Positions 1 to 52,031 of a stretch of DNA of 64,000 nucleotides are shown in pieces. Below the pieces are notes generated by a model. The model did not search any database. It saw nothing but the letters and a program-made list of their open reading frames with translations, and was not told the origin of the DNA. The stretch lies in assembly GCF_000378425.1 (NCBI RefSeq), contig NZ_KB899824.1, forward strand, positions 1 to 64,000. Direction: 5' to 3'. The DNA comes from Cohnella laeviribosi DSM 21336. GTDB lineage: Bacteria; Bacillota; Bacilli; Paenibacillales; Paenibacillaceae. Each line of letters opens with the position of its first letter. Positions within the stretch are counted from its first letter, which is position 1. A program made the position numbers and the translations under genes.

Positions 1-134
1 GGTTGCCTACGTGTTACTCACCCGTCCGCCGCTAACCTTCTCGGAAGCAAGCTCCCTCGAAGGTCCGCTCGACTTGCATGTATTAGGCACGCCGCCAGCG
101 TTCGTCCTGAGCCAGGATCAAACTCTCCATAAAA
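1..134 (-). rRNA. rrs: 16S ribosomal RNA, 5' end (partial)
   Basis: Read on the minus strand, the segment begins with GGAGAGTTTGATCCTGGCTC (the universal 16S 5' region) and continues into the conserved GACGAACGCTGGCGGCGTGC stretch and the CTAATACATGCAAG motif. The gene runs off the left edge, so only about the first 134 bases are present. It lies downstream of lysS in the same orientation, as the rRNA operons do after lysS in B. subtilis. The mature 5' end is placed to within a few bases by analogy. Confidence 0.97.
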
Positions 135-47696: not shown

Positions 47697-48596
47697 TTAC
47701 TTCACCAATCCTGCTTCCGCAAGCGCGCCTTCGAGGCGGGCGAATTCGGCAAGCGAGAGCGTCTCGCCGCGCCGCTCGGGCGCAATGCCGGCGGCGCTCA
47801 GCACCTCCGCCAGCTCCGCTTTGCGATCCTTGCCGAAGAAGGCCGTCAGGTTGTTGTGCAGCGTCTTGCGCCGCTGCGCGAATGCGGCATGAACGATGCG
47901 GAAAAACCGCTCCTCGCTCGCCACTTCGACGGGCGGCTTGCTTCTGCGCTTCAACCGAATGACCGCCGACTCGACATTCGGCGCCGGGATGAAGGAACCC
48001 GGCGGCACGGTGCAGACGTATTCCGGCTCGCAATAATATTGAACGGCGATGCTGAGCGCGCCGTACTCTTTGCCCCCCGGAGCTGCGGCCATACGTTCGG
48101 CCACTTCCTTCTGCACCATCACGACGATCGATTCGACCGGCAGCTTGTCCTCGAGCAGCTTCATCACGATCGGCGTCGTCACGTAATACGGCAGGTTGGC
48201 GACCACGCTTACGCTTTCGCATTCGGCGAACCGTTCGTTCCACAAAGGCCGAAGATCGGCTTTCAGCACATCCGCGTGCAGCAGGGTGACATTGTCGTAG
48301 ATGGCGAGCACATCCCGCAGAATCGGAATGAGCCGGTCGTCGATTTCGACAGCCGCCACCTGTCCCGCCTCCTGCGCCAGCCGCTCCGTGAGCGCCCCGA
48401 TGCCCGGGCCGATTTCGAGCGCGCCTTTGGTCGGCCCCAAATCGGCTGCCGCGATGATCTTGTCCAAAATATTTTTGTCGATCAGAAAATTTTGTCCCAG
48501 GCTTTTCCGAAACGTAAATCCGTGCCTGCGAATAATTTCTTTGGTCCGGCTCGGAGTCGCGATAGCGGCTCCGCTGCGGACGACGCTTTTGTCCAT
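47697..48596 (-). CDS. rsmA: 16S rRNA (adenine1518/1519-N6)-dimethyltransferase
   Basis: Dimethylates two adjacent adenines in helix 45 of 16S rRNA (KsgA). The 299-residue Rossmann methyltransferase has [17 protein letters not shown], the SAM motif [14 protein letters not shown], and the target-base motif [12 protein letters not shown] (NLPY). It lies 6 bases downstream of rnmV, and the pair is conserved in Firmicutes. Confidence 0.97.
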
Positions 48597-48602
48597 AGCC
48601 GT

Positions 48603-49157
48603 CTACAATCCTTCCCGCTCCAGCTGCGATAACGCGCTTGCGAACTCCTCACGCGTAATGCGGAACATTACGCAGCGCTTGTAAAACTGTTTGCCGTTCG
48701 CGTATCCGATACCGAGCAGCTCGCCCATCCGCCGGCGGCGCTGCGCGGCCGAACCGTGAACGATCAGCCCCGCCTCCAACAGATCGGTCCAGGCGATTTC
48801 CGGCTCGTCGCCCTTCTCCGGCGCCTCTCCGCTGCGGGCCTTAGCGAGCGCCTGCCGGATCGCTTCGTCGGTTGCGTGCTCGACGCCGATCCCGTCCTTG
48901 CCGCGGGCTTCGGCCCGGGTCAGAAACGCGTGCTTGCAATCCGGAATCCGCTCGGCGATGATTTTGCGAATCCGCTCGCCCGGCACGTCCGGATCCGTAA
49001 ACACGATGACGCCTCGGCGCTTGTGCGCCAGCTCGATTCGGCGGAGGACGTCTTCGCCGATCGCCGATCCCCCGGTCTCGATCGTCTCGGCCGAAACCGC
49101 GCGCCGGATGGCGGCCGTATCGTCTTTTCCCTCCACCACAATGACTTCTCGAATCAT
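48603..49157 (-). CDS. rnmV: Ribonuclease M5
   Basis: Final maturation of 5S rRNA. From the ATG at 49157 it has 184 residues: a Toprim domain with VVEGKDDTAAIRRAV near residue 6-20 and the metal-binding VFTDPDVPGERIRKII, then GVEHATDEAIRQAL and the DUF4093-type C-terminus. The frame extends to 49250 without a usable start. It pairs with rsmA downstream. Confidence 0.96.
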   Translation of the reverse strand: MIREVIVVEGKDDTAAIRRAVSAETIETGGSAIGEDVLRRIELAHKRRGVIVFTDPDVPGERIRKIIAERIPDCKHAFLTRAEARGKDGIGVEHATDEAIRQALAKARSGEAPEKGDEPEIAWTDLLEAGLIVHGSAAQRRRRMGELLGIGYANGKQFYKRCVMFRITREEFASALSQLEREGL

Positions 49158-49304
49158 GTTTTGCCATTCCGCCTTCTTCGTATCCCGTATAAATGCAACA
49201 AATCTTATTATAACCGAGAACGGGATCGTGCCGCATGCCGGCGGATGCATCGGTCCTAATGCGTCGCATCGTCACCGCGACACCGGCCCCCGTCCCCGAA
49301 ATTG

Positions 49305-49331
49305 CAAAAAGAAGGGGCGTAACGCCCCTTC
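49305..49331 (-). terminator. Intrinsic terminator of yabE
   Basis: Minus strand: GAAGGGGCG, loop TTA, CGCCCCTTC, then TTTTTG, about 125 bases after the yabE stop. Confidence 0.92.
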
Positions 49332-49456
49332 CACTATCATTGCCGCTGTATTTCGCATATGCTGCGGACGCGTCCCGCGGTTGGCATCCCCGATCGACGC
49401 ATCCCGATATCGGCCCGATCCGCGGCTCCGGTTCGGATCGGCTTCAAGCCTGGCGA

Positions 49457-50599
49457 TCAGCTCGCCGACGGCTTGACAGGTCCGATCACATATACCGTAT
49501 ATCCGCTTCTCGCGCCGAATTTGTTGGCATATTTCTCGCTGTCGAAATACACATCGATTTTTTTCCCTTTGATGGCGCTGCCGGTATCTTCGGCACGGCG
49601 GAAGCCGATGCCTTCGATGTAAACCCACCAGCCGAGTGGGATCACATCGGGGTCGACGGCAATCGTCCGCCCTTCCTCCACCTTCGTGCCGGATGCGGTA
49701 ATGCCGTAGCCCTCGTCTCCGACATCTTTGCCTGTGGAAGCCGGACCGGCCGAATAAGCGGTCAGCTTGACGTTTTTCAGCACGCGCTTGACCTTGACCG
49801 ACTGTCCGTTAAGCTTGACGATGTTGTTCGCATCGTACGACATGATCTTGACTTCCGGCGCTTTTTTCTTGGTGCCGACCGCCACGACCTTCTGCACGGC
49901 CGGTTTTGCCACCGTCTTGGAAATCAACTGGTCGCTGACCAGACGGCCGTCTACATAAACGCGCTCGAACTTTTTGACCAGCAAGCCTTCCCTACCGGAT
50001 TGAACGACTTTTTTCTTACCTTCGAGCAACGTGCCGTCCTTCTTCTCAACGATCGTGAAGGTGACCGGATGCTTCGTCTCCACGATCTCTTTTTTCACTC
50101 GCAGCACTTGAATGGTCATACCGTCCGTTATCGGCGTCGTCGGACCGGGATAAACCCGATCGTTCGCCGAAAGCGTGATGTTCGCTGCCCGCAGCACATC
50201 CCGAACGGTATCTGCGGTTGTATATCGGATTTCCTTTTTTCCGTCTGCCTGCAACGTAATGCGGGCCGCACGCGTAATCGCGATCGTGCTGCCTTCTTCC
50301 AGCTTGGCATCGAGCGGTTGGGAGATTTCATCTTGCGGGCCGATGACGATATTATGCTCCGAAAGAAGCGATCGCACATCGGAGACTTTGGTTTTGATAA
50401 CGGTTGTCTTCCCGCCGTCCACAACGGTCACGCTTCTTGCGGACGCGTCGTGTAGCAGCAATAAGAACAAGATGGTCATAGCAAAAGAGAGAATTGCGCT
50501 GAGGAGAATCAAACGCAAATGCTCATGCTTCCATCGCGCTGCGAAAAGCTTGCCGGTCGGTCGTGGATCATGGGTGTTCCCGACAGGAACAGTTCCCAT
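49457..50599 (-). CDS. yabE: Cell-wall 3D-domain protein YabE (G5/DUF348)
   Basis: Predicted secreted or membrane-anchored wall lytic factor related to resuscitation-promoting factors. The 380-residue protein has a cytoplasmic start, one membrane segment (about 29-48), three DUF348 repeats (about 54-215), a G5 domain (about 170-245; VTFTIVEKKDGTLLEGKKKVVQ) and a C-terminal 3D domain with the three conserved Asp in EGRTIAVDPDVIPLG, RRAEDTGSAIKG and KIDVYF. AAGGAGGA lies 8 bases before the ATG. A c-di-AMP riboswitch and terminator stand in its leader. Confidence 0.95.
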   Translation of the reverse strand: MGTVPVGNTHDPRPTGKLFAARWKHEHLRLILLSAILSFAMTILFLLLLHDASARSVTVVDGGKTTVIKTKVSDVRSLLSEHNIVIGPQDEISQPLDAKLEEGSTIAITRAARITLQADGKKEIRYTTADTVRDVLRAANITLSANDRVYPGPTTPITDGMTIQVLRVKKEIVETKHPVTFTIVEKKDGTLLEGKKKVVQSGREGLLVKKFERVYVDGRLVSDQLISKTVAKPAVQKVVAVGTKKKAPEVKIMSYDANNIVKLNGQSVKVKRVLKNVKLTAYSAGPASTGKDVGDEGYGITASGTKVEEGRTIAVDPDVIPLGWWVYIEGIGFRRAEDTGSAIKGKKIDVYFDSEKYANKFGARSGYTVYVIGPVKPSAS

Positions 50600-50796
50600 T
50601 TTCTCGTTCCTCCTTCATAGCCCCGCCGTCGACTGTTACGCATGACTTCGTCTGACGCGACTATCCTTTTTTGATAACGGCGCAATGCTTCGCGCGAAGC
50701 GGCATTCGCACGGAAGACGCGCGCCGTCCTGACCAGTGAAGGTCTCACCTTGTGGCTGAAACCATTCGCCCTTTTTGTTACACCGAAAACGGACAA

Positions 50797-50833
50797 CAAA
50801 AAAAGCCGACGGACAGAGGATCTGTTCGTGGCT
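50797..50833 (-). terminator. Riboswitch-controlled terminator in the yabE leader
   Basis: Minus strand: AGCC-ACG-(AA)-CAGA pairs with TCTG-(C)-CGT-(C)-GGCT and is followed by TTTTTTTG. It lies directly downstream of the c-di-AMP aptamer and about 200 bases before yabE, the expected place for a switch-off expression platform. Confidence 0.8.
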
Positions 50834-50868
50834 TCCGCTTGCGGCAACTAAAGGGAAATGGGCAGCAC

Positions 50869-51062
50869 GAGATGACCTCTCTCTCATACGCTTGCGAGGT
50901 TAGCTGTCGGGTTCGGACCTCGAGAGTAGCCCTATTCGCTTTGAAGCGAAATTCACCCCAAGATTGCTCGTCCGCCGAAGCCGTGTTCTGGCAATCGTAC
51001 ACAACTTCCGCGTCGGGTCCCCCGCTCTCCTTGCGGAGATTCAGCGCACTGGAAAAGGGATG
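50869..51062 (-). promoter_or_regulatory. c-di-AMP riboswitch (ydaO-yuaA type) of yabE
   Basis: The minus strand carries the conserved ydaO-yuaA blocks in order: CGCTGAATCTCCGC (51033-51046), AGCGGGGGACCCGACG, TTGGGGTGAAT (near 50951-50961), AGGGCTACTCT (50923-50933), GTCCGAACCCG (50908-50918) and CAGCTAACCTCGCAAGCG (50889-50906). An intrinsic terminator follows and a promoter precedes it. Riboswitches of this class bind c-di-AMP and turn wall-hydrolase, osmolyte and K+ transport genes off; here the target is yabE. Confidence 0.94.
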
Positions 51063-51085
51063 CCATATTCAAACTCTTGGAATTG

Positions 51086-51115
51086 ATCATAACCTCTTGG
51101 CGGCGAAGGTGTAAA
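51086..51115 (-). promoter_or_regulatory. Promoter of the riboswitch-yabE transcript
   Basis: Minus strand: TTTACA (51110-51115), 18-bp spacer, TATGAT (51086-51091), with the start placed just before the aptamer. The rest of the gap to tatD (51116-51235) is A/T-rich and holds only a weak TTTTCCG/CGGAAAA hairpin. Confidence 0.7.
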
Positions 51116-51235: not shown

Positions 51236-52009
51236 TTATCTCGCAAGTCCCAAACAGGTGCGGCTATTTAAGGATGTTAAATTAGCAAATTCTTCCACTG
51301 TTTTCCCTTTTATTTCCGCTCCTGCCTCCGCTACGAAACGCACATATGCGGACTCGTTTCGCTTCCCTCGATAGGGGTGGGGGGTAAGGTAAGGCGCGTC
51401 GGTTTCAATCAAAATCCGGTCGTCCGGAACCTTCGCCAGCACCTCTTTGGGCACCCTTGCGTTTTTGAACGTGACCGGTCCGCCAAACGAAATATAGAAA
51501 TTCATGTCGAGACATTGCTTCGCGATCTCCCAGCTTCCGGAAAAACAATGCATGATGCCGCCTACCTCGGACGCCCCCTCTTCCTTCAGCAGACGGACGA
51601 CATCCTCGTGCGCGTCACGATTGTGGATGACGATCGGTTTTTTGAGCCGCTTGGCCAGACGGATTTGCTCCCGGAACACGGTGTGCTGGATTTCTTTAGG
51701 GGACGTGTCCCAATAGTAATCGAGCCCGATTTCGCCAATGGCGACCACTTTCGGATGCGCGCACAGCCGCTCGATCCATGCCAGATCCTCTTCCAGTCTC
51801 ATGTCGATCGCATCCGTCGGATGCCAGCCTACGGCCGCATAAATAAACGGGTATTGTTCCGCCAGCGCCATGGTGGTCGGAATCGTTTCACGGTTGAAGC
51901 CGATGTTGACGATGATATCCACGCCAGCCTCGCGCGCGCGGGCGATGACTTCCGCGCGGTCGTTGTCGAATTTGGGGGAGTCGAGATGAGCGTGTGTGTC
52001 GATAAGCAT
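51236..52009 (-). CDS. tatD: TatD-family metal-dependent deoxyribonuclease
   Basis: Amidohydrolase-fold nuclease of 257 residues, acting on DNA ends or D-aminoacyl-tRNA in characterised members. MLIDTHAHLD holds the HxH metal ligands, GEIGLDYYW the bridging Glu, KPIVIHNRDAHED and MHCFSG further His, and LIETDAPYL the Asp. The ATG at 52009 has AGGAGA 11 bases upstream. The last residues (NSRTCLGLAR) are a slightly unusual version of the normal NAKRLF.L ending. Confidence 0.95.
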   Translation of the reverse strand: MLIDTHAHLDSPKFDNDRAEVIARAREAGVDIIVNIGFNRETIPTTMALAEQYPFIYAAVGWHPTDAIDMRLEEDLAWIERLCAHPKVVAIGEIGLDYYWDTSPKEIQHTVFREQIRLAKRLKKPIVIHNRDAHEDVVRLLKEEGASEVGGIMHCFSGSWEIAKQCLDMNFYISFGGPVTFKNARVPKEVLAKVPDDRILIETDAPYLTPHPYRGKRNESAYVRFVAEAGAEIKGKTVEEFANLTSLNSRTCLGLAR

Positions 52010-52031
52010 AGCGTAATTTGTCTCCTTCGGT

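Follow-up and report, generated by a model that had tools for sequence, protein, structure and literature searches.

In Bacillus thuringiensis, the leader of kdpFABC contains a c-di-AMP riboswitch that, when tested, terminated transcription on c-di-AMP, and the c-di-AMP pool falls under K+ limitation (PMC6488665). The leader of yabE in Cohnella laeviribosi is similar in its aptamer class (RF00379), in having an intrinsic terminator behind the aptamer, and in its predicted OFF direction, but the target is a wall protein instead of a K+ transporter. Cell-wall-remodelling genes are already known as targets of this class from the actinobacterial rpfA/rpf1 and nlpC switches (PMC9960051). Neither of the tested examples, S. 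coelicolor rpfA and C. glutamicum nlpC, has a canonical terminator, whereas the yabE leader has a terminator and an antiterminator, and C. glutamicum nlpC is probably controlled at translation (PMC9960051). In actinobacteria, the counterparts of Sps/YabE are the Rpf proteins (PMC1084345). Since the same class of riboswitch precedes rpf genes there, whose products have an equivalent role with an unrelated catalytic domain, the regulatory link looks either convergent or very old.

Two other systems involve the same gene or its syntenic counterpart. In M. tuberculosis, there is transcription attenuation before rpfB, in the gene order tatD-rpfB-ksgA, but that leader is found in some mycobacteria only, its ligand is undefined, it is predicted to be an ON switch, and it is not described as a ydaO element (PMC6009663). 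In B. subtilis, the orthologous yabE has the same synteny (PMC1084345) but is reported to be controlled by the antisense RNA S25 under SigM/SigX (PMC8464778); YabE, YdjM and YocH support the function of LytE there (PMC10653849). A simple pattern search of the + strand at 48400-51100 gave no match for similar ECF-type antisense promoters. In the literature that we searched (Nelson 2013 and Block 2010 lay outside this search), we found neither the link between yabE and a c-di-AMP switch nor its conservation across an order.

The features that we discuss are listed here, in the direction of yabE transcription. Coordinates refer to the window, which is the whole 64,000-nucleotide stretch of DNA that was analyzed.

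51236-52018: TatD gene, upstream of yabE
51086-51115, minus strand: promoter, TTTACA-18-TATGAT
50874-51056, minus strand: c-di-AMP riboswitch aptamer (RF00379; 104.1 bits, E = 1.1e-23)
50866-50882, minus strand: switching tail, with AGAG (50882-50879), GGUC (50877-50874) and UCGUG (50870-50866), from alignment A1 and a series of folds
50803-50834, minus strand: terminator hairpin, from folding; CACGA (50830-50826), GAUC (50822-50819) and CUCU (50818-50815) double as the antiterminator partner
50798-50804, minus strand: U-tract of the terminator (seven U), from the sequence
50618-50663, minus strand: second conserved element, UAGUC-G-CGUC...GGCG-G-GGCUA, abutting the Shine-Dalgarno sequence; P1 pairs UAGUC (50663-50659) with GGCUA (50622-50618), and P2 pairs CGUC (50657-50654) with GGCG (50627-50624) around a variable loop that contains UCAUGC
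50609-50613, minus strand: Shine-Dalgarno sequence of yabE, GGAGG, from the sequence
49457-50599, minus strand: yabE (spsB), a 380-amino-acid protein with two DUF348 stretches, G5 and 3D
49312-49329, minus strand: terminator-like hairpin 3' of yabE
48603-49154: Toprim/DUF4093 gene, rnmV-like, downstream of yabE
47697-48596: rsmA/ksgA-like ORF, downstream of yabE, named from sequence alone

An earlier note, made without database searches, had described a minus-strand ydaO-yuaA element with a promoter before it and a terminator after it, about 200 bases ahead of yabE. Each of these parts was confirmed. A search with Rfam covariance models identified RF00379 at 51056-50874, matching all of model positions 1-134 of 134 and far above the gathering threshold of 38 bits; this is one of just two Rfam matches in the window. 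The promoter matches the consensus at 10 of 12 positions and is the sole promoter-like site in a 900-base scan. The same promoter, with its 18-base spacer, lies 26-43 nt 5' of the aptamer in all 52 relatives that we checked (mean score 10.0/12, versus 7.7 in shuffled sequence). From the end of the terminator to the ATG at 50599 is about 199 nt, and the gene is indeed yabE: the DUF348, G5 and C-terminal 3D (Sps) domains all score far above the Pfam cut-offs. Its nearest relatives are from Cohnella (69% identity).

The switch is an ordinary member of the known class. We take c-di-AMP as the probable ligand from the class, and OFF as the probable direction from the class, from the anatomy of the switch and from the tested kdp member (PMC6488665). 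Because the ligand is assigned by family, the aptamer could instead be a degenerate or altered one, with a ydaO-like fold that senses another ligand or none. This seems very improbable, given the full-length match at 104 bits, equally complete matches in the orthologous leaders described below, and the two proteins with diadenylate cyclase domains that the genome encodes.

To see how widely the switch precedes yabE, we gathered 80 loci from the Paenibacillus/Cohnella group by their YabE proteins. RF00379 lies on the same strand and directly 5' of yabE in 70 of them, with full-length matches, and it is the only Rfam family above gathering at these loci. The distance from the end of the aptamer to the start codon is 193-414 nt (65 leaders measured). 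Eight of the 10 loci without the switch still lacked RF00379 at a relaxed threshold. Across the order, joining the positions of yabE with those of RF00379 gave the pair in 11 of 14 sampled genomes, from families f2, f3, f6, f7, f8 and f11; it was absent from the sampled genomes of f4, f5 and f9. Outside the order, RF00379 did not precede the best YabE match in any of 29 genomes of Bacilli, among which B. subtilis itself was not located. This lineage-wide spread had escaped the earlier note. Control by the switch is nevertheless dispensable, because 10 of the 80 yabE genes do without it and because we found no recognizable terminator behind the switch at another locus, L046.

The terminator fold has a predicted energy of -20.2 kcal/mol over a 64-nt stretch (z = -2.85), and 2 of 200 shuffled sequences folded equally well. 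A simple terminator scan of the yabE leader did not detect the hairpin (50834-50798, including the U-tract) because its stem is interrupted. The tail that follows the aptamer can pair in two ways. Its AGAG pairs either with the CUCU of an aptamer loop or with the CUCU of the terminator, and its AGAG, GGUC and UCGUG can all pair with the terminator. Because AGAG is shared, the two states are mutually exclusive.

These pairings are strongly conserved. Across 61 aligned leaders, both partners of the antiterminator hardly change, the tail with AGAG-N-GAUC and UCGUG and the terminator with CACGA and GAUC-CUCU: identity is 89-100% for AGAG, GAUC, UCGUG and GAUCCUCU, as compared to 39% in the linker between the tail and its partner strands in the terminator. 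The aptamer loop CUCU and the tail AGAG form all four pairs in 61/61 leaders, so this pairing shows no covariation within the set. In the yabE leaders, 99.1% of antiterminator cells can pair, versus 37-58% in a slid control. The antiterminator hardly varies among yabE orthologs, which makes a covariation control uninformative there, so we turned to unlike switches: 23 terminator-bearing c-di-AMP switches before different genes. Each tail was paired with its own terminator (mean -16.8 kcal/mol) or with permuted partners (-13.4 kcal/mol, standard deviation 0.64), and none of 10,000 permutations was as good. This preference in unlike switches suggests that the tail/terminator logic is general to the class.

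We also folded the growing transcript, beginning downstream of the aptamer core. For transcripts ending at 50816-50808, the antiterminator was the most stable fold; from 50804 on, it was the terminator. In these models, then, thermodynamics in the end favors the terminator, whose formation may be delayed by a free tail.

In leaders from Paenibacillus (L030-L089), the sequence GNCGACA just 3' of the U-tract is complementary to the 3' arm of the terminator, UGUCGNC. These motifs covary in the Paenibacillus-group leaders (-8.9 kcal/mol for own partners versus -7.45 for permuted ones; 0/5000 permutations as good) and do not in the Cohnella leaders. This pairing could form in read-through RNA only.

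We think it very probable that c-di-AMP controls yabE transcription as an OFF switch, by a choice between terminator and antiterminator. Transcription would start at about 51079. At low c-di-AMP, the tail (AGAG-N-GGUC...UCGUG) would be free to pair with CACGA...GAUC-CUCU of the nascent terminator; the terminator would then form too late, and the polymerase would continue into yabE. With c-di-AMP bound, the aptamer (P1, plus the pairing of the loop CUCU with the tail AGAG) would sequester the tail; the terminator hairpin would then form and prevent synthesis of YabE, which is predicted to remodel the cell wall. High c-di-AMP would turn yabE down here, with a likely effect on the wall. Regulation of yabE by c-di-AMP, as the earlier note held, is supported by the sequence comparisons and is the best reading, because the arrangement is conserved across an order. 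It would tie the c-di-AMP pool, and thus turgor and K+, to a wall-remodelling gene of the Sps/Rpf type across a whole order of Firmicutes.

The locus has the gene order tatD-yabE-rnmV-rsmA (ksgA), and the tatD-yabE-rnmV-ksgA context is known to be conserved (PMC1084345). The order is also that of M. tuberculosis rpfB-ksgA-ispE, where co-transcription has been shown (PMC6009663), so read-through might mainly serve rnmV and rsmA instead of yabE. But the terminator-like hairpin behind yabE (49329-49312) suggests that yabE is a single-gene transcription unit, and we consider a mainly downstream role improbable.

The more novel part of the leader is the second conserved element, at the ribosome-binding site, which the earlier note had also overlooked. 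Every one of the 80 yabE leaders has a recognizable copy, whether or not the c-di-AMP switch is present, and so do most of the families sampled across the order; we did not find it in 14 yabE leaders from outside the order. A covariance model of the element finds one strong copy per genome across the order, just 5' of yabE wherever we compared positions. Genome G020 has an additional, weaker match (27 bits) before another gene, and a yabE-like gene that is cut down to the 3D part still has the element. A search of 50560-50860 found no same-strand Rfam match to the element (50663-50618) up to E = 10. We set aside a sub-threshold match to nhaA-II (E = 5.1) upstream of it as due to chance. In two f4 leaders without RF00379 (L152 and L164), a different stem, GGUC...GACC, seems by eye to be kept at the same Shine-Dalgarno position.

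RNAalifold gave no sensible consensus on a long alignment, so we tested the structure of the second element directly. On alignment A4, 96.6% of cells can pair, versus 32-64% in a slid control. One pair has three compensatory cells and three other pairs have one-sided changes, so we consider the structure supported but not proven. An alternative register for P2, using the repeated GGCGGCG, is broken in several families, whereas the chosen one is preserved. We also considered a leader peptide (AUGCGUAAC...), but indels among relatives shift the frame, which rules it out.

The ubiquity of this stem, as a single copy per genome before yabE, raises the possibility that the riboswitch is real but that translation, through the second stem, is the main level at which yabE is controlled, with c-di-AMP merely tuning the amount of message. 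We think this is unlikely: where the terminator and antiterminator are present, they are as conserved as the second stem, and in the predicted folds the second stem leaves GGAGG free, with no sign of occlusion. Transcriptional control by c-di-AMP is still the preferred reading. We tentatively suggest, as a less than even possibility, that the yabE leader of this order has two layers, in which the c-di-AMP transcription switch is joined by an undescribed element, UAGUC-R-CGUC...GRCG-R-GGCUA, that sets yabE translation according to another signal or a protein. Translational control is a guess from the position of the element. Either way, the element is a concrete candidate for a new cis-acting RNA.

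The genome contains nine copies of RF00379. Judging from the downstream ORFs, the remaining copies precede genes for K+ transport, osmoprotectant uptake, and lysine-aminomutase-like, LysM-3D, NlpC/P60 and SCP-like proteins. Two of these switches (L004 and L009) lie before lysine-2,3-aminomutase-like genes, which belong to the KamA family by sequence. Elsewhere in the window, the 5' part of a 16S rRNA gene lies at the edge (1-133, minus strand).
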